Of a stretch of DNA of 64,000 nt, positions 11,838 through 31,924 are shown piece by piece (position 1 is the stretch's first letter; every line of letters starts with the position of its first letter). Position numbers and translations under genes: made by a program. Under the pieces are notes generated by a model that saw nothing but the letters and a program-made list of their open reading frames with translations, searched no databases and was not told where the DNA came from. Origin of the DNA: a virus. Location: positions 1 to 64,000 of IMG/VR virus record IMGVR_UViG_3300045973_000675, one strand, 5' to 3'.

Positions 11838-12125
11838 CTACTCGGCGTTGACGACGATCAATTCGCGGCGATCGATGGCACCCTTGACGTCGGGGCAATC
11901 GAGGATGGTTTCGGAAAGGTCGGTCTTCTTTTCGCCGGCCAGGAAAGTGATGGACGTGGCCAATTTCGCCTCGCGCTCAGCGATCCCGGTCATTCCCGAG
12001 ACGTTGTCGTGCTCGGCCGAGTGCTGCTTGACATCGACACAGCGGCACTCGCCGTCCTCGCAGTAGAATTTATGGGGAAGGTTGAACGTCAGGAGCGTTC
12101 GAGATCGGCTCTTCAGCGTCGCCAT
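11838..12125 (-). CDS. small virion-region protein, unknown
   Basis: The product has 95 residues. It contains a short Cys pair (FYCEDGECRCVDVKQ) and otherwise mixed sequence; I recognise no family. It lies directly upstream of the sheath gene and so may be a tail-completion or sheath-associated protein. It is one of four small genes that carry the shared upstream element described at 12152-12171. Confidence 0.5.
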   Translation of the reverse strand: MATLKSRSRTLLTFNLPHKFYCEDGECRCVDVKQHSAEHDNVSGMTGIAEREAKLATSITFLAGEKKTDLSETILDCPDVKGAIDRRELIVVNAE

Positions 12126-12151
12126 GCCATCAGGATTGACGGCGCGGGCGA

Positions 12152-12171
12152 GCTACTCAAAAACTGGGCGG
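12152..12171 (-). promoter_or_regulatory. repeated intergenic element, copy A
   Basis: Minus-strand sequence CCGCCCAGTTTTTGAGTAGC directly follows the TAG of the gene at 12172 and ends exactly 26 bases before the ATG at 12125. Three other junctions (19864, 23148, 28088) carry versions of it with the same 26-base spacing. Candidate phage late promoter or other expression signal; the role is inferred. Confidence 0.5.
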
Positions 12172-13149
12172 CTACGTTTTGGCCACCACGTCGAGATCGA
12201 ACTCTTCTTGGGTGCCAACGCCGACGCGATCGAGGGACTGGCCCGGGAATCCGGCTAAGTCCTCGAGCCCCACGCCATGGATGACCACCGTCAGTCCGTC
12301 GAACGAATGGTTGCCGTCCTGATTGGGCGTGGACGTGTCGCGCGCCTCCGAGTCGGCTGGGACGATGACCTGGTAGCGGATCGTTCCCTTGCTGGCGTCG
12401 TTGGCGTCTCGTTGCACTTCCAGGTAGGTGAACAGATCGAGCACCTTCCGGGTGAGGAGCATCAGGCTGGTGTTCTGCGCGCCGCTGTTGGTGTAGCCAG
12501 CGATGCTGTATTCGAGCGCGACCGCCATGGGTGGCGCCTTGATGTCGACCAACCCACCGCCAAGCTGGCTCGGCACCGCGATCGGCGTGTGGGTGTTGAA
12601 GTGCGGCCGATCTTCCCTGCACCGCGGTCCCGTGACGACCAGGCCCGGAGGATTGGCCAGTCTCGTGACTGCAAATGGAGCGTCGCCGAAGTCCGGGCTG
12701 ATGGCCAGCTTGACCACGTTGTCGACGATCCGCCGCTTGAGCATCCGCAGGAACGCGCGCTCGACCCGGCCGCCATCGTTTTCGATCGCGAGATCTGGAC
12801 GCGCGTAGGTGACGGCCGCCGGCGACGTTCGCGATTCCCCGGCAATCGGCGCGCCAGCATCATCGAGATTGGTCACCGTCAGGGCCGCCGGCACCACCGT
12901 TCCGTCGTCCAGTCGGGACGGGTCATGTTCGGGAAGGTGGCAGGACAGCACGGTGCTGGACAGCACCTCGACCTGTGTCGCCGCTCGAGCTTCGACGGTT
13001 ACGGCCACGGTCGGGATTGGGTCAGGCAACGGACCGTTGGTCGGCGACGGCGGCGACGGCAAACGGAAGTTCGTGCCGCGCACGATGACCAGTTGCCCGC
13101 CGGTCCAGACGGTCGACGGTGTGATGGAAGTGATGGTTGGGGCGGCCAT
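12172..13149 (-). CDS. neck/tail protein with N-terminal IPT/TIG-like Ig domain
   Basis: The product has 325 residues. Residues 1-100 read as an IPT/TIG immunoglobulin-like fold (ITSITPSTVWTGGQLVIVRG, then LPEHDPS...VPAALTVTN). The remaining ~220 residues form a separate domain (FDGLTVVIHGVGLEDLAGFP) of the size of a tail terminator or sheath-initiation protein. It lies between the gpG-like neck gene and the small gene before the sheath, which is the usual place of a tail terminator. IPT domains on phage particles often display or bind sugars; that use here is inferred. Confidence 0.55.
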   Translation of the reverse strand: MAAPTITSITPSTVWTGGQLVIVRGTNFRLPSPPSPTNGPLPDPIPTVAVTVEARAATQVEVLSSTVLSCHLPEHDPSRLDDGTVVPAALTVTNLDDAGAPIAGESRTSPAAVTYARPDLAIENDGGRVERAFLRMLKRRIVDNVVKLAISPDFGDAPFAVTRLANPPGLVVTGPRCREDRPHFNTHTPIAVPSQLGGGLVDIKAPPMAVALEYSIAGYTNSGAQNTSLMLLTRKVLDLFTYLEVQRDANDASKGTIRYQVIVPADSEARDTSTPNQDGNHSFDGLTVVIHGVGLEDLAGFPGQSLDRVGVGTQEEFDLDVVAKT

Positions 13150-13158
13150 GTTTCGATC

Positions 13159-13797
13159 CTATTTCGAGAGGGTGCCCTTCAACATTTTCGCCATCCGTTC
13201 TTCGAGGCGCTTCTTCACGTCGTCGGGTTTGGCGAACACCTCGAAGATCGGGCGGATGAATGGGCGGGCCGGAATCTTGATGAGGAGAAACTTCTTCGCA
13301 TTCGCCTTGGCCTTGATGAGCCAGAACGGCTTGGGGATCGCGCCTTCGCCGTTGAGTTCCTTGAACACCAGGGCGAGGTACCGCATCACCTTCTTGGTCA
13401 ACTCGATCCTGAATGGCCCGGCGCCAAATTCCTGCGTCTCGGCGACGTTGACCAGCGTCTTTCCGTCGGCAGTCTTGGCCGTGCGCAAAATCCCGATGAA
13501 TGCCCCCTTGCCCTTGCCAAGGCTCTCCACGCGGATCCCGTTGCGCAGATCACCATGCACCATCAAGGCCTTGGTGCCGCGGAACCCTGCCAGCCTACGC
13601 GCTGCCAGCGTGAACGGGGACAACGGCTTGAATGCCTTCCCGCCGGGCTCCTGCGATTGTAGGCCCTTGACGATCTCACCCCGCAGGTAGTGGGCCTCTT
13701 GCAGGATGGACTGCTGCGAGGCTGCGGCCATCTCGACGGCCATTTTGTCGAAGGTCTCGCGCGCCTTGGCCCAGTCGCCTGTCTTGCGACTCGCCAC
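13159..13797 (-). CDS. virion morphogenesis/neck protein (gpG-like)
   Basis: The product has 212 residues. The segment FKPLSPFTLAARRLAGFRGT followed by KALMVHGDLRNGIRVE is typical of the Mu gpG/HK97 gp10-like virion morphogenesis proteins that join head and tail. The C-terminal RPFIRPIFE is also usual in this family. It starts at GTG 13797, 2 bases after the upstream TAG. Confidence 0.65.
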   Translation of the reverse strand: MASRKTGDWAKARETFDKMAVEMAAASQQSILQEAHYLRGEIVKGLQSQEPGGKAFKPLSPFTLAARRLAGFRGTKALMVHGDLRNGIRVESLGKGKGAFIGILRTAKTADGKTLVNVAETQEFGAGPFRIELTKKVMRYLALVFKELNGEGAIPKPFWLIKAKANAKKFLLIKIPARPFIRPIFEVFAKPDDVKKRLEERMAKMLKGTLSK

Positions 13798-13799
13798 CG

Positions 13800-14300
13800 C
13801 TACGACCTCGACTGCATGCGGACCAGCAGCAAGTTGCGCCGGCCACCCAATCCAAACTGCGGCGTCGCCTCGTTGACGTACATGCCCGGCGGATCGGGAA
13901 ACTGCTGCACCAGCGTTCCGTCCATCTGATAGATGGCGCCCATCCGGTCGGCGGGGCGGATGAGCGCCACCCCAGTGGCCATATCCACGAGGCCCATCTG
14001 CTCGAGATCGACGAAGTGAAACGTCACCGCGAACACACCAGCCTTCTGGTCTCCGAGTTCCTTCATGGTCTGGCGATTGAACGAATCGGGTTCGATCTGC
14101 GCCGGAATCATGATCGAGGGAAGCTCCTCGCGCTTGGGCAGGCCGCGGCCATCGTCGGTTGCGACGAGAACAGGCTCTTTGTAGTCCGGGTCCAAGGCAG
14201 CATCAGATCCGTCTACCGTCGTCCCCTCGCCCATACCCTCCAGATCGAGCTGGAACATCTCGACTAGGAACTTTTGGAGAAGCCTGCCCCGGTATGCCAT
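13800..14300 (-). CDS. putative head-completion protein
   Basis: The product has about 166 residues. The ATG at 14300 overlaps the upstream TGA (TGATG); a GTG one codon earlier is also possible. The N-terminus is helical with an acidic central part, and the C-terminal half is beta-rich (VFAVTFHFVDLEQMGLVDM). No family is recognised. It lies between the connector-like gene and the gpG-like gene, so a neck role is likely. Confidence 0.45.
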   Translation of the reverse strand: MAYRGRLLQKFLVEMFQLDLEGMGEGTTVDGSDAALDPDYKEPVLVATDDGRGLPKREELPSIMIPAQIEPDSFNRQTMKELGDQKAGVFAVTFHFVDLEQMGLVDMATGVALIRPADRMGAIYQMDGTLVQQFPDPPGMYVNEATPQFGLGGRRNLLLVRMQSRS

Positions 14301-15343
14301 CACGCCGCCGCGAAGGTTGGCGGACGGCGGAATGACTCCAGCATCATGTCGATGTCCGAGTCTCCGGTCCAGATGCCGTTGAGTCCCGTGTCGCTGTACT
14401 GGACCTCCTGGTCACGCGTCTTTTCCATCGTGACCGGCCCGGAAGCTGGCGACCGATTGGCAATTTTCTCCATCGCGCGCGTAATCGCAATCGCGATGGC
14501 GATCTCGCGAACCTGGTCAGGTGTCTGGCCGGTTGGGCTGCCGTCGTAGTTCGTGTAGCCGAACACGCCCTTGACCTGAATGTTCTTCGTCCCGCGGGGC
14601 CACACCCCCATGTCGACACCGATTCTGGCCAACGTCATGGCGTCCCGCAGATTGATCTTCGGATAGGCCCGATCATCCTCGGTCAGCATCCCGTCGGTCA
14701 GGTGGCGAGCGTAGACGCGGAATCCCGCTGCGTCCATCGACATTGCCCCGGCAAACACCCCGTCGAACGTCACCACCACGCTTTCGATCGCGATGATGGG
14801 GGCGGGAATTTCCAGAACGCGGTTACCCGTGCCGTCCAGGGAGAACGTGCGATACCGCGGCTCGAACCAGCGCTCGGTCACGCGCTCGATGTAGCGAGAC
14901 GCGGACGAAATGGATTGCAACACGCGGGCGTCGTTGGCAGTCCCGGACAGGACGCCCTCGGCGCGCACGTCGGACAGCGAACAATACCCGGTCTGAGCCA
15001 ACGAGGGGACGTTCAGGACTTCGATGGGGACGACCGACTGCCCCTGGAATCCCGACGCCATCGTGTAGAACCATTGGATCTGACCGGGGCCAACCTGGGC
15101 ACCGCTCGGCATGGTGAACGTCGCGAAGAAGTGGCCTATGCCGATTCGGTTCGTAGACAGATTCACCGCCTGGACCTGTCCGGGCGTGGTCGGAAATAGC
15201 TGAACCAGAGAACCGCTCGACGTGCTGTAGACGGCGAACGCCAAGGACACCGGATCCTGCATAAGAGCATCACCAAGCGATGGGTCGGTCAAGAAGACCT
15301 CGACGGCCTTCCCCGATGCCTGTCCCTTGGCGATTGCGATCAT
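14300..15343 (-). CDS. head-tail connector/adaptor-like protein with N-terminal beta domain
   Basis: The product has 347 residues. The second half starts with GYCSLSDVRAEGV and continues through SISSASRYIERVTERWFEPR, which is the pattern of helical gp6-type head-tail adaptor proteins. The first ~120 residues are beta-rich and look like an added Ig-like or decoration domain. This fusion is longer than the usual ~100-200 residue adaptor. Its position after the capsid cluster fits. Confidence 0.6.
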   Translation of the reverse strand: MIAIAKGQASGKAVEVFLTDPSLGDALMQDPVSLAFAVYSTSSGSLVQLFPTTPGQVQAVNLSTNRIGIGHFFATFTMPSGAQVGPGQIQWFYTMASGFQGQSVVPIEVLNVPSLAQTGYCSLSDVRAEGVLSGTANDARVLQSISSASRYIERVTERWFEPRYRTFSLDGTGNRVLEIPAPIIAIESVVVTFDGVFAGAMSMDAAGFRVYARHLTDGMLTEDDRAYPKINLRDAMTLARIGVDMGVWPRGTKNIQVKGVFGYTNYDGSPTGQTPDQVREIAIAIAITRAMEKIANRSPASGPVTMEKTRDQEVQYSDTGLNGIWTGDSDIDMMLESFRRPPTFAAA

Positions 15344-15384
15344 GTGGCGCTCTTTCTCACCCGTCCCAAAGGAGGGCGGGCGCT

Positions 15385-15951
15385 CTACTTGGAATCTGCC
15401 TTGGCCTGTTGGCGGGCCGAGCGGGCAGCCCTGCGAGACGATGCCGGGGTGGCATCTGTCGCGTCACCAGCGGTATCTTCGGTTTCCTTCTCAGCCTTCT
15501 CGGCCGCAGCGGCCTCCGCGGCTTCCTTCTCTTCCTGGCTGATGATCTCTTCTCCGTCGACATGCTCCTGCGAGGGATTGAGATACTTTCGACCACGTAA
15601 GGGTTCCTCCAGCGAGGGAGCTGCTACCGTCCCAGCCGGCGTGGTCGCTCGGTCGACCAGGGACAACGATCCAGGGGTGGGACGCGCAGCCAATGCTTCG
15701 CGCTCCGCCCGTGCCCGTTCCGCAGCTTCGATGCCCTTCGCTCCGGCTAGGTCTGTGACCTCGAACAGCGCCTGGGTATCGTCGTCGCTCCGCAGAGATC
15801 GTAGGTACTCCGCCAGTTCGAACGTATCGTTCCCGACCTTGATTGCCTCGGGAATTTTCGCCCACACCCCGACGTTGAAATGGATCCCGTGAACCGAATA
15901 GGTCACGGGACCATTGCGGAAATTGCGCAGCCTTATGAATAGCTCGTTCAT
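15385..15951 (-). CDS. virion-region protein with acidic coiled C-terminus
   Basis: The product has 188 residues, starting at ATG 15951 (MNELFIRLRNF); the longer frame upstream reads over the preceding gene and is unlikely. The first ~75 residues form a compact domain (VTYSVHGIHFNVGVWAKIPE). From residue ~130 on it is rich in E, A and K and ends RRAARSARQQAKADSK, probably a helix or disordered tail. No family recognised. Confidence 0.5.
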   Translation of the reverse strand: MNELFIRLRNFRNGPVTYSVHGIHFNVGVWAKIPEAIKVGNDTFELAEYLRSLRSDDDTQALFEVTDLAGAKGIEAAERARAEREALAARPTPGSLSLVDRATTPAGTVAAPSLEEPLRGRKYLNPSQEHVDGEEIISQEEKEAAEAAAAEKAEKETEDTAGDATDATPASSRRAARSARQQAKADSK

Positions 15952-15991
15952 GTCTTCTAACCCCCGTTGAAAACCCGTGAAGAAACGTCGA

Positions 15992-16330
15992 CTACTTGGA
16001 GTAAACGACGAGCTTGAACGTGACGCCCGACAAGCTGGTCGCGTTCGCCAACTCGGCCGGGGCCGTGCCGGCAGAACCGCCGGCCGTGTAGACCATGAGC
16101 TTGCTGTTGGCGAAGTCCCACACGAGCAGGTACCCACCGTTGGCGCTGACGCTACGGACGTCGAGAATCGCCCTCTGGTCGCCAGTCAAAGCATCCAGGG
16201 CAGCCTGGACACCCGTCATGCCACCCGTGGGGTAGGAGCTATCTCCGACCAGGGTGATCTGATCAACGTAAAGGACCTTCTGGGGTCCATCGATGGACTT
16301 CTCGACTAGGGTCATTGTTCCGATTGCCAT
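15992..16330 (-). CDS. small capsid-region protein, possible decoration protein
   Basis: The product has 112 residues and directly follows the capsid gene with a good AGGAG site. It is beta-rich and Gly/Ser/Ala-rich (ILDVRSVSANGGYLLVWDF). Size, composition and position resemble small capsid decoration or head-fibre proteins, but no specific family is recognised. A GC hairpin (16362-16381) separates it from the capsid gene. Confidence 0.5.
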   Translation of the reverse strand: MAIGTMTLVEKSIDGPQKVLYVDQITLVGDSSYPTGGMTGVQAALDALTGDQRAILDVRSVSANGGYLLVWDFANSKLMVYTAGGSAGTAPAELANATSLSGVTFKLVVYSK

Positions 16331-16361
16331 TGCTGTTCTCCTGAATCAGGTTGAAAGGTTA

Positions 16362-16381
16362 GGGGCGAATTTCTCCGCCCC
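16362..16381. terminator. hairpin after the capsid gene
   Basis: GGGGCG (16362-16367) and CGCCCC (16376-16381) form a 6-bp stem with an 8-base loop, located 19 bases past the capsid stop. On the minus strand no clean U-run follows, so partial termination or 3'-end protection of the capsid mRNA is more likely than full termination. Confidence 0.4.
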
Positions 16382-16400
16382 ACAAATTTGGTTCGGTCGA

Positions 16401-17348
16401 CTACGCGGACTTGACCTTCACGGCCTTCGCTACCGCGGGCTCGTGGAGGTACTTGACCGCGACGCGCGCCCGGCAGACCACCATCAGGACACCAGCCTGG
16501 ATGTCTTCCTGGGTCTTGAACGTGACGTCCTTCCAGACGCCGACGCAGATGTTCTTGGGATCGCAGAAGATGATGTTCGATTCGTTCGTTCCACCACCGA
16601 GGTTGGTCGGGAACATCGGAACCGGGATGACCTGCACCCCGTAGGCCGGGATGGGGGCTGCCGACGTCAGGGCGCTATCGCCGAGGCCGGTGAAGCGCGG
16701 GGCAACGAGGTCGCGCCACTTGGTCTCGATGGTGGGCGCCGTGTAGAAGCGCATCTTCGACTTGTCCTTCTGGAACTGGCTGGGCAACAGGTTCGCCAGG
16801 TGGAGGAAGTGCGCTTGCGCGAGGACGATCGAACCGTCGTCGACCACGTAGGTGCTCGACTGCTTGAGGATGCCGTCGAGCAGCTTGAGCAGAGGATCCG
16901 TCGACGTGGTGTCGCCGTTGATGGCGAGGTCTTCCATGTCGAGGCCGAAGCGCTCGCCCATGAGCTTCTTGACGTGCGTCGCGAGGGCATCGCCTTCGAT
17001 GTTGTCCTCGATGTCGACGTCGGTCAGGTTGACCTGGCACTTCATCTGGACCGTGGTCAACGTGACCTTGCCCGTGGTGGGGGCCGCACGATCGGTGTAG
17101 CTGAGGGACTGACCCTCGACACCGCCGCGGGTGATGCGCGACAGGAAGCCAAGCTTGTCGACCTCCTGGACGGGCGCCGACAGTGGCTTGAAGAAGACGT
17201 CCTTCAACAGACGCTGGTCCTGGATCGAAATCTCCAAGAACTCTTTGGACTGGGCCGGAAGGAGCACGCCGCCATTGGTGGTCATGTCCGAGACCTTCAT
17301 GTCCGCCTTCTGGATGTTGGTACGGGCGATTTGTCGGTTCGATTCCAT
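16401..17348 (-). CDS. major capsid protein
   Basis: The product has 315 residues. It lies after the protease and scaffold-like genes and has a strong AAGGAG site. The sequence has the look of the P2/HK97-fold capsid group: MTTNGGVLLPAQSKEFLEIS near the N-terminus, a loop with GEL-like content, MGERFGLDMEDLAINGDTTS in the middle (typical of capsid E-loop/spine helix regions), and a C-terminal DIQAGVLMVVCRARVAVKYL. It has no long N-terminal delta domain, in keeping with the separate scaffold-like proteins upstream. Confidence 0.85.
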   Translation of the reverse strand: MESNRQIARTNIQKADMKVSDMTTNGGVLLPAQSKEFLEISIQDQRLLKDVFFKPLSAPVQEVDKLGFLSRITRGGVEGQSLSYTDRAAPTTGKVTLTTVQMKCQVNLTDVDIEDNIEGDALATHVKKLMGERFGLDMEDLAINGDTTSTDPLLKLLDGILKQSSTYVVDDGSIVLAQAHFLHLANLLPSQFQKDKSKMRFYTAPTIETKWRDLVAPRFTGLGDSALTSAAPIPAYGVQVIPVPMFPTNLGGGTNESNIIFCDPKNICVGVWKDVTFKTQEDIQAGVLMVVCRARVAVKYLHEPAVAKAVKVKSA

Positions 17349-17383
17349 CTGATTGCTCCTTGGGGTCGTTGTCGTTGCGAAAA

Positions 17384-18070
17384 CTACGTGCGCTGCGCGT
17401 TCATGTCGTTCGGCCAGGAGAATGGTTTCGCCGTCGACTTGGCGACCTCTTCTGGCTCGTTTGAATTCGGCGCGGGTGTCTGCTTGGCCGCCTTGATGAT
17501 CTCTGCCTGCTTGGCGATCGACACGCTCTGATCGGCGATCTGCTTGGCCTGCGCATCGAGCTTTACTTGAAGATCGGATACCGACTTGGTCAGCTCATCG
17601 ACCTTGGGCGCAAGCGGATTGGGTTCATCTGCCTTGGCGACCTTCGACTTGTCGGTCGATTCTCCCTCGGCGTCCACCTCGTCCTGCAGCTCCTTGACGA
17701 TCTTGGTCAGCTCTGAAACCGAAGTGGCCAGGCGGTCAAGGCGCTCCTTGGCCATCTTGGCTCCACGCTTTGCCACGGGCTCCGGCGCGGGCGTTGCGGC
17801 CAACGCGGCAGCCGCGGCGACGTCGGTGGCCTGCTGTTCGAGCGTGACGGGCGCGGTGACGGTTTCCGTGGCGGGGGTAGATGGCGCTCCGGTTTCAGCA
17901 GATGCAATAGGTTCGGCAGGGAGCACGGTTCCCTCGGCCGACTTCACAACCACGAACGGGCGCTTGTTCGCCGGGGCGTCGACGTTGGCCACTTCAAGGA
18001 CTTCGACGTCCGTGAGTTCCGCGGTGGCCGCGGCCGCCTTGGCGATGCTTGTTCGAGTTGCTGTTCGCAT
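17384..18070 (-). CDS. scaffold-like protein with WPNDMN C-terminal tag
   Basis: The product has 228 residues. It is Ala/Pro-rich and disordered in the first 100 residues, then has a long predicted coiled coil (about residues 105-200, e.g. VDELTKSVSDLQVKLDAQAK), and ends PFSWPNDMNAQRT. Long coiled coils upstream of the capsid gene are typical of scaffolding proteins. The C-terminal PF-WPNDMN motif is shared with the 227-residue protein at 18809, suggesting a common binding partner such as the capsid or protease. Function is inferred. Confidence 0.6.
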   Translation of the reverse strand: MRTATRTSIAKAAAATAELTDVEVLEVANVDAPANKRPFVVVKSAEGTVLPAEPIASAETGAPSTPATETVTAPVTLEQQATDVAAAAALAATPAPEPVAKRGAKMAKERLDRLATSVSELTKIVKELQDEVDAEGESTDKSKVAKADEPNPLAPKVDELTKSVSDLQVKLDAQAKQIADQSVSIAKQAEIIKAAKQTPAPNSNEPEEVAKSTAKPFSWPNDMNAQRT

Positions 18071-18112
18071 GGTCTATTTCAGGGTTGCAAGCGGAATCGA
18101 CGTAATCAAAAA

Positions 18113-18805
18113 TCAGTCGAGTGGGTTGACGACGGCGGTCCCGCCAATCGAGAATCCGGTGATTTCGCCCTTCTTGATGGCGGACCACATGTCATCGTCC
18201 AGCACCCTCTCGGCCATCATCCAAGACCCGGCCTTGAGGAATTGCCCCTCGTAGGTCTCGTCTGACTTTTGGATGTAGCACTCCAGCACGGCGAACTTGT
18301 CGTTGGAATCGAGCACCTTGCCGTCCTTGGTACGCGCGTGCTGGACGGTGAAGTGCCCCGCCTCCCCATCGGTTCGGTACGCCTCCATCCAAGCCTGCTG
18401 TGCCTTGCGAATGGTCGCCGACGTCTCGGTGTGGCCCTGGGTGTCGACCTCGTCTGGTTCCATGACGACGCCCAGGACGTAGCGCTCTTCCTCGGCAGTC
18501 TCGGCCTTGGAAACGATCACGCGGGCGAACTTGAGCGTCGGAGATGGCTCGACGGGCGTGACGGTCGGCGGCGGTTCAGATGGCGCGGTGGCCTTCTGGA
18601 TTGCCACCACAATCGCCTTCGCAAGCGTTGGGTACATTCCTCCATCGCCCATCGATGCCATCGCCTTGCGGGTCTCACCGCGCACGCGCAGCTTGACCAC
18701 GACGTCCTGGTAGTCGTCGGTAGCGGTAGTGGCAGCGGCGATCACAGGGGAGGTCACGGATGCCGTCTTCGCGATAGGCTCTCTGAATCGCCGGCTGCGC
18801 TTCAT
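18113..18805 (-). CDS. prohead serine protease-like protein, XkdF family
   Basis: The product has 230 residues. From about residue 105 it shows the XkdF-type pattern: RYVLGVVMEPDEVDTQGHTE, then AWMEAYRT, and near the end KKGEITGFSIGGTA. In the PBSX-like families this putative protease processes scaffold and capsid precursors. The first ~85 residues are basic and Ser/Thr/Pro-rich. It lies between scaffold-like genes, directly upstream of the capsid. Confidence 0.7.
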   Translation of the reverse strand: MKRSRRFREPIAKTASVTSPVIAAATTATDDYQDVVVKLRVRGETRKAMASMGDGGMYPTLAKAIVVAIQKATAPSEPPPTVTPVEPSPTLKFARVIVSKAETAEEERYVLGVVMEPDEVDTQGHTETSATIRKAQQAWMEAYRTDGEAGHFTVQHARTKDGKVLDSNDKFAVLECYIQKSDETYEGQFLKAGSWMMAERVLDDDMWSAIKKGEITGFSIGGTAVVNPLD

Positions 18806-18808
18806 GGC

Positions 18809-19492
18809 CTACCGACGGTTCATATCGTTCGGCCACGCGAACGGGGCGGGCGCGACGGGGGCAGGATCTGCAGCCTTCGCGATGGAGTCGATCTTGGTGA
18901 TCTTCTCGTCGGGCATGGCCGCTGCCTTCTTGGCTTCCTCGGCCGCCTTGTCCTTCTCGGCCGCAACTGCTTCGTCCTTGGCCTTCATCTTCTTGTCACC
19001 GCACGCCTTGGCTAGCTTCGCCAGCGTGGCGCACCGGAACACGCGAACCTTGGCGCCCTCGACATCGGTCTCGCCGGTGGCGGACCAGGTGGCCAGGGCA
19101 ACCTTCACGGTCGCGACCATGGGACCGGCATCCATGCCCTTGGCGACCGCGGCCTTTTCGAGGGTCGTCGCGCACATCTCGACCATCTCGTCGGCGCCCA
19201 TATCCTCGCCAGCGTCATCGGTGGCCAGGGTGGCGACGTCCTCGGCGGGGACCATCGGGAACCCGTAGTAGACGCTGTCGAGCACCTTTCCGCACTCGTA
19301 GAGTTCGTCCCACATGTCGATCGAAATGTTGGGATCGATCTCGCCGGCGGTGGCGATCTGGTCCCGCAAAGCGGACAAGCGGGTCACTACCAGCGTGAGG
19401 GCCGTAACCACTCCACCAGCAAAGTCGCTCTGCTTGAGGACTCGGGTGCAGGCGTCGTTGAGCTTCTTGATGATTTCGGTCTTGGTGGCCAT
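18809..19492 (-). CDS. head-assembly protein sharing the WPNDMN C-terminal tag
   Basis: The product has 227 residues. The first ~150 residues are mostly helical with several Cys (MWDELYECGKVLDSVYYGF), followed by an A/K/E-rich helix and the C-terminus PFAWPNDMNRR. That end nearly repeats the end of the scaffold-like protein at 17384 (PFSWPNDMNAQ). Strong Shine-Dalgarno (AGGAG) before ATG 19492. Candidate second scaffold or internal head protein. Confidence 0.5.
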   Translation of the reverse strand: MATKTEIIKKLNDACTRVLKQSDFAGGVVTALTLVVTRLSALRDQIATAGEIDPNISIDMWDELYECGKVLDSVYYGFPMVPAEDVATLATDDAGEDMGADEMVEMCATTLEKAAVAKGMDAGPMVATVKVALATWSATGETDVEGAKVRVFRCATLAKLAKACGDKKMKAKDEAVAAEKDKAAEEAKKAAAMPDEKITKIDSIAKAADPAPVAPAPFAWPNDMNRR

Positions 19493-19504
19493 GGGTCGGG
19501 CTCC

Positions 19505-19837
19505 TTATTGGGTGTCGTCGCTGCCGGCCCAACTCGCGCGCTTACTGGGTTCCCAGTTCGTGCCGTCGAGATGCGCCTTCAGGGCTGCGGGAAGTTCGTC
19601 GATGATTCGTTCGCTGCTCCACTTCATCACGTGGTGAAGCTCCGCCGCCTTGGCGATGCAGAAGTCGATGCGCTCCTTGATCTTCGCGTCGGTCAGGTGG
19701 CGGACGGGGTGGCTGTCGAAGCTGCTGCGAACGACGCGCCCGACGCCGGCCTGGATTCTCGCCATGTAGACGCCGAAAAGCGAGCCGACGGACGCTCCAC
19801 GGACGTGGCCGTAGGGCGATACGATGAGGCTGGACAT
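19505..19837 (-). CDS. small head-region protein, unknown
   Basis: The product has 110 residues, predominantly helical in its second half (IKERIDFCIAKAAELHHVM). No family recognised. It follows the MuF-like gene and carries the shared upstream element (19864-19884) exactly 26 bases before its ATG. Confidence 0.45.
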   Translation of the reverse strand: MSSLIVSPYGHVRGASVGSLFGVYMARIQAGVGRVVRSSFDSHPVRHLTDAKIKERIDFCIAKAAELHHVMKWSSERIIDELPAALKAHLDGTNWEPSKRASWAGSDDTQ

Positions 19838-19863
19838 GACCCAATGGTCGGGGTGGGGTGCTG

Positions 19864-19884
19864 GCTACTCAAAATCGGGGGCGG
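19864..19884 (-). promoter_or_regulatory. repeated intergenic element, copy B
   Basis: Minus-strand CCGCCCCCGATTTTGAGTAGC directly follows the TGA of the MuF-like gene (19885) and ends 26 bases before the ATG at 19837. Same arrangement as copies at 12152, 23148 and 28088. Confidence 0.5.
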
Positions 19885-20946: not shown

Positions 20947-20949
20947 GGG

Positions 20950-22830
20950 CTACGTCTCCGTGATGAAAGGGGCCAGCTCGGAAGCGGGCACGCGGATGAC
21001 CTGCTCGTCGTCATCGCTCGATTGCTTGTGGACTGCGAATTCCTTGGCCGCACTATCCTGCTCGGCAGCCAGCACGCTCTTTCGAATGGCGACGAGGTGC
21101 TTGGCCATGGCCACGATGTTGCCCTCCTGACGTGCCTTCTCAGCTCCGGCAAGGTTATCGGAGATGCCAAGCCCACCGCCGCCGGCGGCGCCCGCCAGCG
21201 TGAGGGCGAACGGTTCATCCCCGCCATCGACAGGCTTGTAGTCGCGGCCGAACACGTCCTCGGCCACGGCGCGAATCTCGTTTCGGCTGAGGGCGTTCTC
21301 GAACTGCTTCGCCGCCAGGGCCAGTGCTTCGGGATTCTTGAGGTCCGCTCCCAGCGACTCGAATTTGTAGTAGCGGATCCCGAGGTCGGTCAGGATGGTG
21401 CGATCCATCAAATAGTCGAAGGCGTTGCGCTCGCCCGAGAAGACCTGCTGTTCGGCGAATGCCAGGGCAGCGTCGGCTGTAGCCCTATTTACATCGCTGG
21501 AATCGCCGCGAAGAATCTTGGGAAGCCGAAACGACTCGCCGATCTTGTTTCGGTTCCGCTCGTCGTACTCCATGAACAGGCCATCCTTCAGGATGGCGTC
21601 GGTCAGGGGTTGGATCTTGATCCGCACCTTCCCGTCGGCGGTCGTGCCGGTGGAGTTCTCGGCCGGCATCGCCTCGAGGATGATGGCCTTGTGGAAGTTG
21701 CGCGCTCCCCTGATCTTGTTCTCGATGAAATCCTTGAACGCCTTTACCGATTGGCTCGATAGCCTGCCGCCTTCAATCAGCACTGCCATCGGCGGGATCG
21801 ACTTGTTGTCGAAGAACAGATAGTTGATGTACTCGGCCTTTCGACTTCCCTGGACGGACAGGTAGTTGCCAATCCAGCGCGGCAACCCGTAGGGGCCGGT
21901 CGGATTGTAGAGGGCATCGCACCACAGCTCGGTCGCCTCCATGGTGGTGGGCTCGGCTGCCATCATGGCATCGACGCAGGCTTGGCGATCTTTTCCCGCC
22001 TCGTAAAGCGTCCCTGTCTTTACGCTCATCACGCGCGTGTCGCCGAACTCCTTGAAGTACGCCGGGATGCCCTCGCAGAGTTGGATGTAGCGGCGAAAGC
22101 GGCGCCACTTCAAGATCGTTCTGGTCGTGATCGGTGAGATGCGAACTGGCACCGAAACCTTGATCCATGGCCCACGCTTGAGCATGCGAATCGTGTACGA
22201 CGGGACGTGCCTTAGCTCGGCGATCTTCCTCAGTCCGTTGCGGATGACCTCCCAGTAGCCGCTGCCGTTCGTCTCCTTGTCGTGCCGCGATCTCCGCCGC
22301 AGCTCCACAAACGAATATTGGTCGGTGCAGTAGTCGAAGAACGAGGTGATGCGCGCCAGCTCCTTGCGCATCTCGGACGCGACGATAGCTTTGCGCTGGG
22401 CCACTTCAGCCGACGTGGGCTCGGGCGGGTCGGGCTGGGTATCGGCGCCGGACGCTTCTTCCATGGCATCCAATCGTTCCAGATAGATGACGTCGGCGAT
22501 TTTCTTGTCCGCGTCCTCTTTGGTCAGGTCGATGATGGGGACGAAGCGATGACCGAAACCGTCGCAGTTGGTGACGTATGAGTGCACGCACTGGGGGAGG
22601 ATGTTGGACTCCTCGACCATGCGGCCGAGCAGCTCGGGTGGATAGGGGGGCACGAGCGCCCCTGCGTCGCCGAACATCCCGGCGATACGCTTGTCCTCTT
22701 CCTCGCGGACATTGCTCGGCGGCGCATCGTCGTAGCTGATGACGTGCATCTTGGTGATGGCGGTGCGGTCGTTGTCCGCCACCTCTTCGTCGTCGTCGAC
22801 CTTGGCGATCGCTTTCCCTTCGTCAGCCAT
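20950..22830 (-). CDS. portal protein (PBSX-type)
   Basis: The product has 626 residues. After a disordered acidic start it shows the PBSX-family portal pattern: VEESNILPQCVHSYVTNCDG, then GSGYWEVIRN, LPRWIGNYLSVQGSRKAEYI and FKDFIENKIRGARNFHK. The portal forms the dodecameric DNA gate at one capsid vertex. The C-terminal ~120 residues are longer than in smaller portals and charged. It is followed by the MuF-like gene. Confidence 0.9.
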   Translation of the reverse strand: MADEGKAIAKVDDDEEVADNDRTAITKMHVISYDDAPPSNVREEEDKRIAGMFGDAGALVPPYPPELLGRMVEESNILPQCVHSYVTNCDGFGHRFVPIIDLTKEDADKKIADVIYLERLDAMEEASGADTQPDPPEPTSAEVAQRKAIVASEMRKELARITSFFDYCTDQYSFVELRRRSRHDKETNGSGYWEVIRNGLRKIAELRHVPSYTIRMLKRGPWIKVSVPVRISPITTRTILKWRRFRRYIQLCEGIPAYFKEFGDTRVMSVKTGTLYEAGKDRQACVDAMMAAEPTTMEATELWCDALYNPTGPYGLPRWIGNYLSVQGSRKAEYINYLFFDNKSIPPMAVLIEGGRLSSQSVKAFKDFIENKIRGARNFHKAIILEAMPAENSTGTTADGKVRIKIQPLTDAILKDGLFMEYDERNRNKIGESFRLPKILRGDSSDVNRATADAALAFAEQQVFSGERNAFDYLMDRTILTDLGIRYYKFESLGADLKNPEALALAAKQFENALSRNEIRAVAEDVFGRDYKPVDGGDEPFALTLAGAAGGGGLGISDNLAGAEKARQEGNIVAMAKHLVAIRKSVLAAEQDSAAKEFAVHKQSSDDDEQVIRVPASELAPFITET

Positions 22831-22833
22831 GGG

Positions 22834-23121
22834 CTAGCCTTCGGAGGACAGCACGGCCTGCGGGGTTCCGCTCGTGTAGGCGGTCACGTTAGCCCGCACC
22901 TTCTTGACCCGCAATGGAATCTGAACCTGCCCGGGTGCCGTGATGGCCGCGCCGATGTTCACCGGATCTGCATCGGTCGCCACCGTGTACTGGAGCTGCA
23001 CCGTGGCCGAGAACGTTCCGAAGACCGTGATCCAGCCGTCCTTGATCGAATCGCAGGTCAACCACGCCCCGGCGGCGACGGACGTTGGAACGGCTAACGC
23101 ATTGAAAGATGAGGAGGCCAT
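22834..23121 (-). CDS. small structural-region protein, unknown
   Basis: The product has 95 residues from ATG 23121; a TTG start 10 codons upstream is possible but would run into the shared element. It is beta-rich and reads like a small decoration or surface protein (SIKDGWITVFGTFSATVQLQ). It has the repeated element 26 bases upstream of its ATG. Confidence 0.5.
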   Translation of the reverse strand: MASSSFNALAVPTSVAAGAWLTCDSIKDGWITVFGTFSATVQLQYTVATDADPVNIGAAITAPGQVQIPLRVKKVRANVTAYTSGTPQAVLSSEG

Positions 23122-23147
23122 GCCCCCATGGTCGGCGCACTCGTTGC

Positions 23148-23166
23148 GCAACCCAAAATCGGGGCG
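23148..23166 (-). promoter_or_regulatory. repeated intergenic element, copy D (diverged)
   Basis: Minus-strand CGCCCCGATTTTGGGTTGC directly follows the TAG of the repeat-protein gene and ends 26 bases before the ATG at 23121. It differs from the other copies at GAGTAG (here GGGTTG), but keeps the C-rich block, the T-run and the spacing. Confidence 0.4.
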
Positions 23167-24564
23167 CTACTCGAAGGTCGTCTCGGCGGCGTACCCGTCC
23201 AGGAACGTCGTCCAGAAGTCCATCGGGATGAACGTCGTCTCTCCTGTTTGGCTATCCAGGAAAAACGTGTCGTAGTCGGTCTGCTCGAAGGTCGTGTCAG
23301 CAGCGTAGCCGTCCAGGAACGTCGTCTCGGATTCAACGGTCGTACCGTACTGCGGGGTTGAGGCGTGTGCATCCGCTGACTCGGCGCTGGCTTCCGCCTC
23401 CGACGTGGAAGCGGAAAAACTTGCTCCCGCGTTCGCTTGCTCAAGCTCTGCCTCGGATTCTCCGATCCCGACCGCTCGAACCGCGGTGGCGGAGACTTGC
23501 TCGGATGACGTTTCCGATTCAGACATGGACGCCGTGACCAGGCGCCCAGCCACGATCTGTTCAGATTCCGATTCGGACTCGGCCGCTGCAACGGTCGCGG
23601 CCTGCACCTGTGACGTCTGTTCCGATTCAGCTATGGAATCTGACGCGGATACCACAGCGACGCGTGCTACAGCGGCTGTCTCGGTTTCAGCTTCCGATTC
23701 GGCCACGTTGGCGGATAGGGCCAGTCCCCCCGATATCTGCTCGGATTCGGTCTGTGCTTCACCCACCGCGACCGTTGCTGCCGTTGCCGCGGATGCCTGT
23801 TCGACCTCGGATGCAGATTCGGCGAGCCCGACTACCCGCGCGGCAGACGCGCCAACGCCTTCCGCTTCTCCCTCCGATTCGCTCACGTTGGCCGTGAAGG
23901 ACAGTCCCGCCGCGACTTGCTCCGCTTCTGCTGTAGCCTCCGCCACCCCTGCCGTTGACGTCGCGGCAGTCGCGACCTGCTCGGCTTGGGCCTCGGCTTC
24001 CGAGACGCCGGCCGCGGCCACCGTTGCCGCCCCGGCGATTTCCGTTAGGCCTTCCGACTCCGCGACGGGCGCCGTGAACACGAGTCCCGTGGCCACCTGC
24101 TCTGCTTCAGCTTCGGATTCGCCGACAGTCGCAGTCGTGACCCGCGTGGCGGACGCCGATTCAGCTACGGCTTCTGCATCGGCTACGCCCTGGGTAAACG
24201 ACGCGCCTGCCCCGATAGCCTCAGTCTCCGATTCCGATTCAGCGACGGAGGGGCGCAGCGTTGTAGTCGTCGCGGTCGCCTCAGCTTCGGCCTCCGACTC
24301 TGCAACGGACGCGGACAACACGAGCCCGGTTGTGACCTGCTCGGCCTCGGCTTCGGATTCGCTGACCGCCCCTGTGGTGGCGCGCGAAACGGCCGCCGAC
24401 TCTGTCTCTGCCGCTGACTCTGCAACTCCAGCACTCGCCGACGTCTGGGCCGCAGTTCCCTCCCCTACCGCCTCGCCCTCTGCAACGTTGGCCGTGTAGA
24501 GCGTAGAAGAACCAGCATCGAACGCGTCGGCCTGGAATGCGTCCGTCTGGAACGCTTGCGCCAT
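23167..24564 (-). CDS. tandem 20-residue repeat protein (likely virion fibre or surface protein)
   Basis: The product has 465 residues. After a short Phe/Asp/Ala head (AFQTDAFQADAFDAG, seen at the start of some phage surface proteins), residues 27-406 consist of 19 in-register repeats of exactly 20 residues. The consensus is V-A-E-S-E-A-E-A-E-Q-V-A followed by x-G-x-x-x-T-A-x. Residues after 406 form a different Tyr/Thr/Phe tail with two copies of TTFLDGYAAxTTFE. Regular alternation of acidic and small residues could make a solenoid or trimeric fibre. Lying between fibre and portal genes, it is probably displayed on the particle. Function is inferred. Confidence 0.6.
   Translation of the reverse strand: MAQAFQTDAFQADAFDAGSSTLYTANVAEGEAVGEGTAAQTSASAGVAESAAETESAAVSRATTGAVSESEAEAEQVTTGLVLSASVAESEAEAEATATTTTLRPSVAESESETEAIGAGASFTQGVADAEAVAESASATRVTTATVGESEAEAEQVATGLVFTAPVAESEGLTEIAGAATVAAAGVSEAEAQAEQVATAATSTAGVAEATAEAEQVAAGLSFTANVSESEGEAEGVGASAARVVGLAESASEVEQASAATAATVAVGEAQTESEQISGGLALSANVAESEAETETAAVARVAVVSASDSIAESEQTSQVQAATVAAAESESESEQIVAGRLVTASMSESETSSEQVSATAVRAVGIGESEAELEQANAGASFSASTSEAEASAESADAHASTPQYGTTVESETTFLDGYAADTTFEQTDYDTFFLDSQTGETTFIPMDFWTTFLDGYAAETTFE
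23347..24486 (-). repeat. 19 diverged 60-bp coding repeats
   Basis: These bases code the 19 in-register 20-residue units of the protein at 23167-24564. Units differ at DNA level but keep reading frame and exact 60-bp length, so selection acts on the protein. No CRISPR-like spacers. Confidence 0.75.
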
Positions 24565-24567
24565 GGC

Positions 24568-27072
24568 CTACCCAGGTACTGCCGAGAGCATTGCTAGGTA
24601 GGGGGCGCTCGCGACCATGACCGCTCCAGTGGGCCATTTCGGCCCGAAGGCGGCGTTGGCCTGCCCCGTGAGCTTCCATCCTACCGGACCCAACACACCC
24701 GAGAAAGGCAATCCCGTCGTGGCAAGTGTTGGCATGTCGGGAACGGGGCCGTCGATCTGTCGAAGAATCGGAACCGTGGTGGGAGCGACGTTGATCTTCA
24801 TGACCAACCAGTACAGGCCCGGGTCGAGTTCCAGGTCATTTAGTCCGGTGGCCGACTTAAACGCCGCAGTTGTTCCAACGGCAACGCCGGCGCTCTTCTC
24901 GCTCATCAGCGTACCGGGCTGACCAGGCGAGCAAGCATCGTCGGCAAAGATGGCCAGACGCACGGTGGTCCCAGTGGTGGGCGCATTCGTGCACTCGAAG
25001 CCAATCGCTGTGAATCGAGTGCTCCCCTGCGTGATCCGAAAGGGCACAGCAAAAGTGTCACCAGCCACACATGTGTACGTGGCTGCTGAGATTCTCGCAC
25101 CGGGGGTATGGTAGTAGTTGCCGGGTCTAACCGTGTACTGAACGGCGCCACTTGCAGCAGGGGATCCCGCCATGCAGGCCGCGTTTCCGTAGCTGGAAGC
25201 CGGTGGCGCGAGGCGATTGAACGCGTCCACCAACGCCTGTGCCGCCTTGACCGCCCCGATCTCATTGTAGTGTAGGCCCGCAGGTGCGTTGGGCGAGTAG
25301 CAAAGATCGACTGCCCCAATGGCGCCATCGCAGTCCGCCTCTTGGACCATCGAATCGAATTCGCCGATCAGGCTGCGAAGGGCGATGTTCCAATTCAAAA
25401 CGTCCGTGTCTCGATTTGCTCCGGTGTTCGACGTTGCCTTCCACGGAGCGTAGAACGATGCCGCGTCGATGGCGGCGTGACCGATGGCGCTCAAGCGCGA
25501 TAGGCTGCAGACGATGACCGGCGAGGGCGAAAGCGATTCAAGCCACCACGAATCGAAGGACACGTTGCCGCTGGCATCCACAGAGGACACGGTTCCGATG
25601 ATCGTTTGCGTGGCGCCTGTGACCGGGGCTGTGTAGCGCACGATCACCGGGCAGGTGACGGCGTCAGCTGCGGCCTTGATGTTCGAGCACGAAAGCGTGC
25701 CAGTGAGCCCGGCGGTTCCGGACCATGTGACCACCCCGCCCACGACGCCTGGGCGCCCGATCAGGCAAATCGCGATCTTCTCGCCCTTGTAGTCGGCGGG
25801 AATCGTAATCGTGAACGTCGCCGACGTGGTCGTGGTGGAGTTGCGAAGCGTGCCGGTCGTGCTGCGGCCTTCCTGCGCCGTCAGGGCGGTCATGCCAGCG
25901 CCGTAGGCAACAGATGCGTCCGCGTTGTCCCGCACCGTCGAGGCTCGGCAGCGGCTGATCGCAAATCTCATTGCGTGGATGAATGCCGTCTGCGACTGCG
26001 CGGAATTTCCGTAGTTTCCGAGGTCGTTCAAACCAAAGCAGAGCAGGTGTCCGCCGCCGCTGGCGGTGTAAGGCGTCGTCTTCGCGGTGGTCTTGGTACC
26101 CCTGTACTGCGTGCCAAACGCGACTGCGTGCCATCCGCCGAGTCCATTCTGAATGAGGCCGTCGGCCGTAATGCGTGAACCGTTGACCGCTCGGTTGGTC
26201 CAGTCTAGAGTCGAAAATCCCAGCATCGAGCGTGCGAGGGCGTCGAAGCGTCCCGTCTGATCGTAGGTCGCAACGCCATTCATGAAGTACGAATGTCCCC
26301 ACGCCGTCCACTGACGAACCGCGAGCTGAGCAAGCTGCGCCGGCTTGTTCATGATGTCCGGCTCCCACGCCCCTGGCGCAGTCGCAATCGACGTGGCGTT
26401 GACGTAGAGGTTCTCGCCAGGGCGAACAAAAGCAATGAACCCGCCGCCATTGGCGTTGACCGTGACGACTCCAGACCCGGTCGTGAGGTTGTCGATCTCG
26501 TAGGCCCAATCCGCGAACGGAAGTGTGTTGGCCGCGGGCAGGATAACCGTTTGCGCTGTTATTCCCGATCCAGTCAGGATGAGCTGGCGCGGACTTGCGT
26601 TCGTGAGGGTTGTGGTTCCGCCCGACATCGCGACGGTCTGTGTGCCCTGCGGCTGCACCAAGAGCGCAAGCTGCGTCTCCGCCACATTCGATGCGACCAC
26701 GTGGGGACTCTGCAATCCCCACACGCCGGCCGCCTCGTCGATGAGCACGCACCAGTCCGAAACCCCGCTGAGGACAAACGAGGTCGCGCCTCCGATGGTG
26801 TCCGCGCCCGAGCGATTCAGTGTCACGATGCCCGCGCCGAGCATGCAGACGAAGATCGGCTTACCCGATCCGGTCGCAGCCGGGACCGTGACGGCGTAGG
26901 TCCCCGCGGCCAGCGTCACCGCGTCGTCAGCAAGCGCGATGGTGTCTGCGCCCGAGATGGCGTGCTTGGCGTAGTCCAGCGAGTGGGTTGCGTTCCAATT
27001 ACTCGGACGTACAAGGGTCGCGTCGGCCCCATCGGCCTTCCCCGATACAAATGGATGTGTTACCGATGGCAT
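24568..27072 (-). CDS. tail fibre/spike with SGNH-type hydrolase domain
   Basis: The product has 834 residues. The start, VTHPFVSGKADGADATLVRP, is a common opening of phage fibre genes. Residues ~255-620 read as an SGNH/GDSL hydrolase: WTAWGHSYF (nucleophile Ser261), AVNGSRI (block II, near 297), FGLND (346-350, block III Asn) and GLHYNEIG (His601, block V). The usual Asp three residues before His is an Ala (598). A beta-rich C-terminal domain follows (residues ~640-834). Such fibres often remove O-acetyl groups from host surface sugars; the substrate cannot be told. It lies between the terminase and portal genes, an uncommon place for a fibre. Confidence 0.65.
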   Translation of the reverse strand: MPSVTHPFVSGKADGADATLVRPSNWNATHSLDYAKHAISGADTIALADDAVTLAAGTYAVTVPAATGSGKPIFVCMLGAGIVTLNRSGADTIGGATSFVLSGVSDWCVLIDEAAGVWGLQSPHVVASNVAETQLALLVQPQGTQTVAMSGGTTTLTNASPRQLILTGSGITAQTVILPAANTLPFADWAYEIDNLTTGSGVVTVNANGGGFIAFVRPGENLYVNATSIATAPGAWEPDIMNKPAQLAQLAVRQWTAWGHSYFMNGVATYDQTGRFDALARSMLGFSTLDWTNRAVNGSRITADGLIQNGLGGWHAVAFGTQYRGTKTTAKTTPYTASGGGHLLCFGLNDLGNYGNSAQSQTAFIHAMRFAISRCRASTVRDNADASVAYGAGMTALTAQEGRSTTGTLRNSTTTTSATFTITIPADYKGEKIAICLIGRPGVVGGVVTWSGTAGLTGTLSCSNIKAAADAVTCPVIVRYTAPVTGATQTIIGTVSSVDASGNVSFDSWWLESLSPSPVIVCSLSRLSAIGHAAIDAASFYAPWKATSNTGANRDTDVLNWNIALRSLIGEFDSMVQEADCDGAIGAVDLCYSPNAPAGLHYNEIGAVKAAQALVDAFNRLAPPASSYGNAACMAGSPAASGAVQYTVRPGNYYHTPGARISAATYTCVAGDTFAVPFRITQGSTRFTAIGFECTNAPTTGTTVRLAIFADDACSPGQPGTLMSEKSAGVAVGTTAAFKSATGLNDLELDPGLYWLVMKINVAPTTVPILRQIDGPVPDMPTLATTGLPFSGVLGPVGWKLTGQANAAFGPKWPTGAVMVASAPYLAMLSAVPG

Positions 27073-27099
27073 GGCTGCTCCGGGACGAGCGATGCCTGA

Positions 27100-27738
27100 T
27101 TACGTCAGCGTGATCGTGAACGTGACCGCGAGCTGGTCGCCGACCTGTAGTGACCGCTGTGTGAAGGCCAGCACGTGGTGCATGGTCCCGGCACTGGAAG
27201 CCGAGAAGAGCGCGGCCTTCTGCGCCGACTGTGCCCCGGTCGAGCACGTGAATGTCTTCGAGATCGTTGCGGTACTGGCACCCGCTGAGTGGGCATAGGC
27301 TCCGATTGCCCTCGTCAGTCCGTTGGCCGCAATCTCGGTCGATAGCGTGGTGCTGGCCGTGGTCTCGGTCAGGGTGTCATTGGAGAGCGCGATGTAGTTG
27401 AGCCCGTTCGCCTGTGCGCTGGTCCCGTAGGTCTGGGCGAATGTGAAGTCGATCCCCGCAGTGGTCTTGACGTTGTAGACGGTGTCGGATCCGATCACCT
27501 TGCACCCGGTGTGCTTCACCGGGTTCGCGCAGCGGATGTGCTGGATGACGCCCTTGGCTCGGTGGACCTGCACGGCGTCGGAGGTCTGGGTGTTGGCCGT
27601 AAATCCCGTGGTTGCCCGCTCTCCCGCGCTGACCACGTCACGGGTTGCGCTGAGTCCGAGCAGGGGGTTGAGTGCGGCGCCCAGTACCAGGGCGCAGAGG
27701 ATGGCTGCGAAATTGACGATTCTGCTTTGCTGTCTCAT
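27100..27738 (-). CDS. secreted or surface protein with signal peptide
   Basis: The product has 212 residues from ATG 27738, with GGAG six bases upstream. Residues 1-33 look like a signal peptide (basic start, hydrophobic VNFAAILCALVLGAAL core, cleavage near LSA-T). The mature part is Thr/Ser/Ala-rich and beta-type with four Cys (C71, C79 region and C in KTFTCSTGA). It sits directly before the SGNH fibre gene. A signal peptide on a protein in the virion operon is unusual; it may act on the cell envelope. Confidence 0.55.
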   Translation of the reverse strand: MRQQSRIVNFAAILCALVLGAALNPLLGLSATRDVVSAGERATTGFTANTQTSDAVQVHRAKGVIQHIRCANPVKHTGCKVIGSDTVYNVKTTAGIDFTFAQTYGTSAQANGLNYIALSNDTLTETTASTTLSTEIAANGLTRAIGAYAHSAGASTATISKTFTCSTGAQSAQKAALFSASSAGTMHHVLAFTQRSLQVGDQLAVTFTITLT

Positions 27739-27740
27739 GG

Positions 27741-28061
27741 TCACTCCAAAATGAAAAGGTTCAACGGAACCCCGCGGGCGACTCCCCCGCCGGGCAAATC
27801 CAGGTGTGGATACAGACGGTAACGGCCGGGCTGCGCGGTCTCCAATCCCAGGGCGTCGAACGTGTGGACCATGGTCGCGACGTCCATGGCAGCCGCCGCG
27901 ATGATGGCGGGCCACACGACCTCGTCGCCGTTCTCGGCCCGCACGATAAAGTGGCATGCGGTCCCGGTCGTGGCGTCGAAGGTGCTGCCCGCCTTGCGGT
28001 GAACGCGCACGGTCAGCGACTCGGGAGCGAGCGCCCCGGCGTAGATTGAGATCGATGCCAC
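27741..28061 (-). CDS. small beta-rich protein, unknown
   Basis: The product has 106 residues and starts at GTG 28061. It is beta-rich (SISIYAGALAPESLTVRVHR) and ends FILE, with its stop just before the RBS of the signal-peptide protein. No family recognised; it could be a tail or fibre-linked beta-sandwich. The shared element (28088-28106) lies 26 bases upstream. Confidence 0.45.
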   Translation of the reverse strand: MASISIYAGALAPESLTVRVHRKAGSTFDATTGTACHFIVRAENGDEVVWPAIIAAAAMDVATMVHTFDALGLETAQPGRYRLYPHLDLPGGGVARGVPLNLFILE

Positions 28062-28087
28062 CCACCGAGTGTCGGGCGTGGTGGCGC

Positions 28088-28106
28088 GCTACTCAAAAGC
28101 GGGCGG
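28088..28106 (-). promoter_or_regulatory. repeated intergenic element, copy C
   Basis: Minus-strand CCGCCCGCTTTTGAGTAGC directly follows the TAA of the RHH gene (28107) and ends 26 bases before the GTG at 28061. This is the cleanest copy of the four. Confidence 0.5.
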
Positions 28107-31667: not shown

Positions 31668-31924
31668 GCCACCCCTTCGGCGGCCGAGGCCTCGCGCTTG
31701 GCCAGCTCTTCCCTGATGAGCGCAAGGCTTCCCCTCCCCACCGGCATGCCGGCCAGGGCCGCGCACAGGGTATTGCCCGAGACACCGAATGCACCGAGTG
31801 CCCGTCGGCTCGTCTGGCCCGCTAGGGCTGTCCTGATGCGCGCCTGTAGCTCCGCTGGCGCAGGGATGGCCGCTCTCGTGTTGCCTTCCGGTCGTCTGCA
31901 TGTTTGTTCAACTTTCAGATGCAC
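31664..31924 (-). CDS. small HTH-like regulator
   Basis: The product has 86 residues from GTG 31924. The central part SRRALGAFGVSGNTLCAALA followed by GMPVGRGSLALIREELAKR resembles a Cro/lambda-repressor-type HTH of the kind found in small phage proteins. The start has only a weak binding site (GAAG). It overlaps the sigma-like gene by 4 bases, so the two may act together. Confidence 0.45.
   Translation of the reverse strand: MHLKVEQTCRRPEGNTRAAIPAPAELQARIRTALAGQTSRRALGAFGVSGNTLCAALAGMPVGRGSLALIREELAKREASAAEGVA

Follow-up and report, generated by a model that had tools for sequence, protein, structure and literature searches.

We analysed a stretch of 64,000 nucleotides (the window) of the linear IMG/VR virus record IMGVR_UViG_3300045973_000675, which comprises 79,144 bp. 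The virus is a myovirus whose terminase, portal, protease, capsid, sheath, tube and tape-measure genes lie on the minus strand, and our subject is a short element that recurs at junctions of this virion operon. A sequence-only reading of the window had placed one element at four junctions, each copy directly after a stop codon and 26 bases before the next start codon, with a diverged copy at 23148 and a partial fifth copy before the gene at 18070. The four copies (A to D) and two further sites (E and F) are listed below.

12152-12171, minus strand: copy A element CCGCCCAGTTTTTGAGTAGC, directly after TAG; -35 box TTGAGT at 12155-12160; next start ATG at 12125
12132-12137, minus strand: -10 box AATCCT of copy A, 17 bp past the -35 box; transcription start (+1) predicted at the ATG at 12125
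19864-19884, minus strand: copy B element CCGCCCCCGATTTTGAGTAGC, after TGA; -35 box TTGAGT at 19867-19872; next start ATG at 19837
19844-19849, minus strand: -10 box GACCAT of copy B
23148-23166, minus strand: copy C element (diverged) CGCCCCGATTTTGGGTTGC, after TAG; -35 box TTGGGT at 23151-23156; next start ATG at 23121
23128-23133, minus strand: -10 box GACCAT of copy C
28088-28106, minus strand: copy D element CCGCCCGCTTTTGAGTAGC, after TAA; -35 box TTGAGT at 28091-28096; next start GTG at 28061
28068-28073, minus strand: -10 box GACACT of copy D
18081-18109, minus strand: copy E (the partial fifth copy), TTGATT at 18104-18109, 17 bp, AACCCT at 18081-18086; 10 bases before ATG at 18070
31932-31960, minus strand: copy F, TTGAGA at 31955-31960, 17 bp, AACCCT at 31932-31937; 7 bases before GTG at 31924

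Register and geometry of the element

The core word TTTTGAGTAGC, which takes the form TTTTGGGTTGC in the diverged copy C, occupies exactly positions -37 to -27 from the start codon at all four virion-operon junctions, so that the final C at -27 leaves 26 bases up to the start codon; the stop codons directly upstream are TAG, TGA, TAG and TAA, and on all these points the earlier description proved correct. The CCGCCC that had been included in the element probably lies outside the core, because it is registered with the upstream stop codon and its spacer to TTTTGAGTAGC varies from 2 to 4. Ten exact matches to CCGCCC-n-TTTTGAGTAGC in viral contigs were all judged from their context to be due to chance. 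The fifth copy was retained, but it sits 4 bases further out, with an intact -10 box, AACCCT.

With at most one mismatch, TTTTGAGTAGC matched only its three exact copies in the whole 79,144-bp record, and with two mismatches 11 sites were found in the window versus 6 expected. As a word it is therefore weak evidence, and the register is what counts. Among 39 upstream regions of this genome, an 11-mer (up to 2 mismatches) was common to four genes at one offset; none of 2000 Markov shuffles reached four (maximum 3), and no second 11-base signal in this genome behaved equally. A similar scan with 8-mers was run on 13 other phages, and groups of four genes sharing a word at one offset did not occur in any of them.

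Counted from the start codon, the -35 box TTGAGT or TTGGGT lies at -35 to -30 in A to D, and a second box follows exactly 17 bases on, at -12 to -7 (AATCCT in A, GACCAT in B and C, GACACT in D). The weaker conservation noticed earlier within the 26 bases could be refined to this box, of the form xAxxxT; each of A to D has A at -11 and T at -7, and E and F show the same pattern. The bipartite arrangement of sigma-70-type promoters, a TTG-type -35 box and an xAxxxT -10 box with a 17-bp spacer, is present in A to D and also in E and F. A two-box profile with fixed spacing, run over the 79 kb, scored A to D at 27-31, followed by F (15.9) and E (14.5); since background sites reach 13.7, E and F are weaker than A to D, and we consider them likely but not certain to be genuine. 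The boxes do not correspond to the TTGACA/TATAAT consensus of the primary sigma factors RpoD/SigA (TTGAGT/TTGGGT with GACCAT, GACACT or AATCCT instead), and TTGAC-TAnnnT sites are present elsewhere in the same genome.

RNA folding gave no structure common to the copies, and with no shared structure a hairpin or terminator was rejected. A haloarchaeal TATA box was also considered and dropped: the proteins are not acidic and their nearest named matches are mostly in bacterial phages.

The four elements together with E and F are most probably phage late promoters with the start codon at or near +1, as their sequence suggests, and a +1 at or near the first base of the gene accounts for the fixed 26-base spacing. 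Besides the 17-bp spacer between the -35 and -10 boxes and the fixed distance to the start codon, the late-promoter proposal of the sequence-only reading gains support from weak Shine-Dalgarno sites, from the position of the copies at the heads of late (virion) gene blocks and from a similar architecture before late genes of other phages. In the mechanism that we propose, a polymerase holoenzyme of the sigma-70 family would read A to F, the extended -35 element being TTTTGAGTAGC and the -10 element, 17 bp away, (G/A)AYCMT; transcription would begin on the initial base of the start codon or one to a few bases from it. The long virion operon would in this way be split by promoters into sub-operons: packaging (F), fibre-like genes (D), portal (C), the protease, scaffold and capsid region (B/E), and sheath and tail (A).

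Genes behind the copies and their start codons

The first genes after A to D and after F are the following.

11838-12125, minus strand: gene for a 95-residue protein before the tail sheath, downstream of copy A; Shine-Dalgarno site absent, the weakest of 110
19505-19837, minus strand: gene for a 110-residue protein of no assigned function, first after copy B
22834-23121, minus strand: gene for a 95-residue protein, first after copy C and immediately ahead of the portal gene; no family match
27741-28061, minus strand: gene for a 106-residue protein with a GTG start, first after copy D
31664-31924, minus strand: 86-residue open reading frame without a Pfam match, predicted to be the leaderless gene behind copy F; it shares 4 bases with the start of the gene that follows

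Leaderless mRNAs require no Shine-Dalgarno site. When 110 genes were ranked by anti-Shine-Dalgarno pairing, the six genes after A to F took ranks 75, 91, 98, 105, 107 and 110 (Mann-Whitney p = 1e-4). The start codons behind A to D coincide with the predicted +1 and have no Shine-Dalgarno site, apart from a weak GGGG upstream of the copy C gene; the offset from the predicted +1 is 1 base in F and 4 bases in E. Placed in this way relative to the start codon, the -35/-10 geometry makes the start codon the predicted +1, from which we infer, going beyond the earlier reading, that A to D, and probably F, would give leaderless mRNAs. Promoter activity, late timing and leaderless translation are all predicted here from DNA sequence.

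The second proposal of the earlier reading, an expression signal of small accessory genes, appears doubtful, since gene A (11838-12125) corresponds by position and weak similarity to the small pre-sheath gene of other myophages, though this gene is missing in G050, the nearest virion relative. A related explanation is that a cassette of stop codon, element, 26 bases and small gene was recently duplicated, or inserted as a moron, and the spacing inherited. All four copies do stand directly after a stop codon and before genes of about 100 residues, and the pre-sheath gene missing in G050 would also fit. However, the inter-box spacers are unrelated, as are the four proteins, gene A fits a conserved pre-sheath gene, and a like signal precedes other genes in other phages (partly seen), which together make a cassette highly improbable.

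Two further features of the virion operon were observed. A 465-residue, strongly acidic low-complexity protein with ESEAEAE repeats (isoelectric point 4.05), encoded at 23167-24564 of the window, had no family match, and a hairpin, GGGGCGGAGAAATTCGCCCC, at 16331-16400 just 3' of the capsid gene is a possible terminator or processing site.

Region-4-like proteins and other phages

The sequence-only reading had named two sigma-like proteins as possible readers of the element.

30801-31667, minus strand: 288-residue protein (start uncertain) whose C-terminal part of about 100 residues is a sigma-region-4-like domain
36990-37382, minus strand: 130-residue sigma-region-4-only protein with the recognition helix LTRERIRQIE

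Both match sigma region 4, the part that binds the -35 box, but neither is a whole sigma factor. The 36990 protein is 49% identical to the C-terminal domain of the 30801 protein; the common domain joins a cysteine-rich HLYL motif to the recognition helix of sigma region 4, and both proteins have the region-4 helix-turn-helix. The window proteins score just below the Pfam cut-off (21.6 vs 24.1 bits), a Sigma70_r4 match was obtained in 49 of 53 family members, and the family profile matched only region 4 of sigma-A in PDB (expectation value, E = 7e-11). The AlphaFold model of the region-4-only protein was confident (mean predicted local distance difference test score 87), and its Foldseek matches to region 4 were weak (best probability 0.51, E about 2). 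No whole phage sigma factor was found, 30801 and 36990 carrying only region 4, and Sigma70_r2 was not seen among the 25 of 41 Pfam families listed for 63 further proteins. The family (RPxTRGxCxxGxRPCPxVSCxxHLYLDV...TRERxRQIE, region 4 with a conserved cysteine/histidine N-terminal part) was traced by a DNA pattern for the domain to 78 IMG/VR viral-contig loci (L019-L096), all encoding homologues, while tblastn with the 36990 protein against 50,697 phage and 72,556 plasmid records gave no match.

Other phages were examined in two sets: set 1 consisted of 61 records or loci from unrelated uncultured phages that carry the sigma4-like family, the window excluded, and set 2 of 18 further records. 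Among 327 Shine-Dalgarno-less genes of set 1, TTG occurred 20 times at -35 and 14 times at -36, compared with about 4 elsewhere, and the counts of AYCNT were 17 at -11 and 12 at -12, compared with about 2; the AYCNT peak was absent among Shine-Dalgarno-bearing genes of the set. The TTG register recurred in set 2 (7, 10 and 6 at -37 to -35 vs 1.67). The pattern TTGR(G/A)-N17-19-xAYCxT-N6-7-RTG followed by an open frame was found 4 times in this genome, 11 times in set 1, 3 times in set 2 and never in the controls (ten phages, 400 kb), as against 0, 0, 1 and 0 on reversed sequences. These counts are evidence, independent of the window, that phages carrying the sigma4-like family use predicted leaderless promoters. 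A profile trained on the four sites was noisy over all records (83 hits vs 45 reversed), its sole useful part being the hits at called starts, 8 vs 0 in controls.

The subtype TTGRGG-17-GACCAT was concentrated in four records (G001, G033, G011 and G020) and absent from the 400 kb of control phages. The genes behind it encode a head-maturation protease (G001, G033), an endolysin (G001), a minor-tail family match (G011) and other probable late products. In G011, a -35/-10 pair precedes each of two divergent genes (26517, minus strand; 26812, plus strand), which fits transcription and not read-through RNA. This bears on the alternative that the element acts in the mRNA, on translation of read-through transcripts, as proposed for the Start-Associated Sequences of Cluster K mycobacteriophages. 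Such a role would suit the weak Shine-Dalgarno sites and the constant spacing from the start codon, and the Start-Associated Sequences resemble our element in being short, asymmetric and repeated, with little freedom in their distance from the start codon (PMC3203893). They differ in place and content, however, lying 3-7 bp from the start, containing AGGAG and preceding non-structural genes (PMC3203893), and no GGGATAGGAGCCC stands 3-7 bp before the start at copies A to D. With the bipartite -35/-10-type DNA spacing, the like signal before divergent genes and no shared RNA fold, we regard an mRNA element as unlikely.

Several points weigh against the late-promoter reading. The -10 boxes match TATAAT poorly, and the start codons of the Shine-Dalgarno-less genes came from a home-made caller. 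Conservation of the motif in other phages was partial: the TTGRGG/GACCAT subtype was clear in only 4 of 31 sigma4-bearing records, did not replicate in set 2, and such junctions are lacking in G050, whose virion module is the same, with identities of about 29-48%. The strict claim that the sigma4 family implies this promoter fails, as set 2 is without the subtype, and because of this lack of replication the family alone is no predictor of it. Searches for close relatives through the portal, terminase, sheath, capsid and 36990 proteins gave none or one distant relative, the exact-peptide search being insensitive, and no window-like element was present in L203, a locus found through 30343. A candidate in G061 (28935, minus strand; TTGAGTAG...) looks like coincidence, because its in-frame ATG overlaps the stop codon.

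Other repeated sites were also met in these records. In G022, four genes (10497 in L108; 16372, 18071 and 19196 in L109) share a palindromic, operator-like TTGGACA-n-TGTCCAA site, and three of the four also have AGGTTAGGGAG, or a similar sequence, ahead of the start codon; the four are probably a repressor regulon. Four small genes of G024 (L175, 26824-28725), each with a near-identical TTGACA-17-TAACCT seven bases before the ATG, are by sequence a recently duplicated cassette of predicted leaderless genes. In G050 (L097-L099), kilobase gaps with the repeated motif GGGGCTTTGCCTC-n-GTAGGAG interrupt the virion module, and this genome has the look of a prophage in decay that took up repeated insertions.

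Recognition of the proposed promoters and known systems

The least certain part of the late-promoter reading is which sigma factor or phage protein confers specificity. That a host sigma factor, primary or alternative, reads the same promoters alone, with no phage factor, has a little under an even chance. Leaderless TTGACA-17-TAnnnT promoters in the same register occur in set-2 phages, and leaderless promoters are thus evidently in use in the host group; on the other hand, the -35 (TTGAGT/TTGRGG) and -10 (GACCAT) boxes are unlike the TTGACA/TAnnnT promoters of the same genome, and a phage factor is usually needed for late timing. It is possible, at a lower probability, that the region-4-only proteins (36990-37382 and the 30801 C-terminus) confer specificity. 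They would dock on the host polymerase, either replacing region 4 of the host sigma factor or sitting next to it, and would read TTTTGAGTAGC as an extended -35 element. The recognition helix is kept in both proteins, whose profile matches only sigma-A region 4, copy F stands immediately ahead of the operon that encodes the 30801 protein, and the -35 box is conserved more than the -10 box. Two paralogues each are present in the window, G033, G011 and G020, all with the late subtype, yet G029 and G036 also hold two sigma4 proteins and are without it. The rarity of the subtype among sigma4-bearing phages counts against these proteins as well, as do the weak Foldseek matches, and their DNA binding is a prediction.

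In phages 7-11 (GTAAtg-16-aCTA) and phiEco32 (tAATGTAtA), late promoters are read by phage sigma factors (PMC8948821). As here, a few phage-specific promoters head late gene blocks, bipartite ones in 7-11, but the boxes are other than ours, the available excerpt of that source reports no fixed start-codon distance (PMC8948821), and here a whole sigma factor was not found. For Cluster O mycobacteriophages, leaderless promoters have been predicted, one of them in the structural operon; they are SigA-like, occupy AT-rich intergenic regions and are not a repeated late signal (PMC4351075), whereas here non-canonical boxes are repeated in one virion operon. T4 gp33, which forms a split sigma with gp55, is likewise a stand-alone phage counterpart of sigma region 4, the link to late transcription being conjectural in our case; it mimics sigma domain 4 although its sequence does not resemble that of sigma, and it does not read DNA (PMC2988020), unlike the 36990 and 30801 proteins, which keep the -35-reading helix and may do so. 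Bipartite late promoters and leaderless phage promoters are each known, and the elements described here would combine the two in a new form.

Phage late promoters are usually found only through RNA mapping. Here the constant spacing from the start codon reveals candidate late promoters from sequence, and TTGRGG-17-GACCAT-6-RTG provides a searchable rule for uncultured phages. We suggest tentatively that a widespread stand-alone region-4 family may redirect polymerase of the host to an extended -35 element, so that a late regulon of leaderless genes is switched on; such a split-sigma system would, in contrast to T4 gp33, read DNA. If region-4-only proteins do read the -35 box, a DNA-reading part of about 100 residues, not a whole sigma factor, would make for a simple takeover of transcription.
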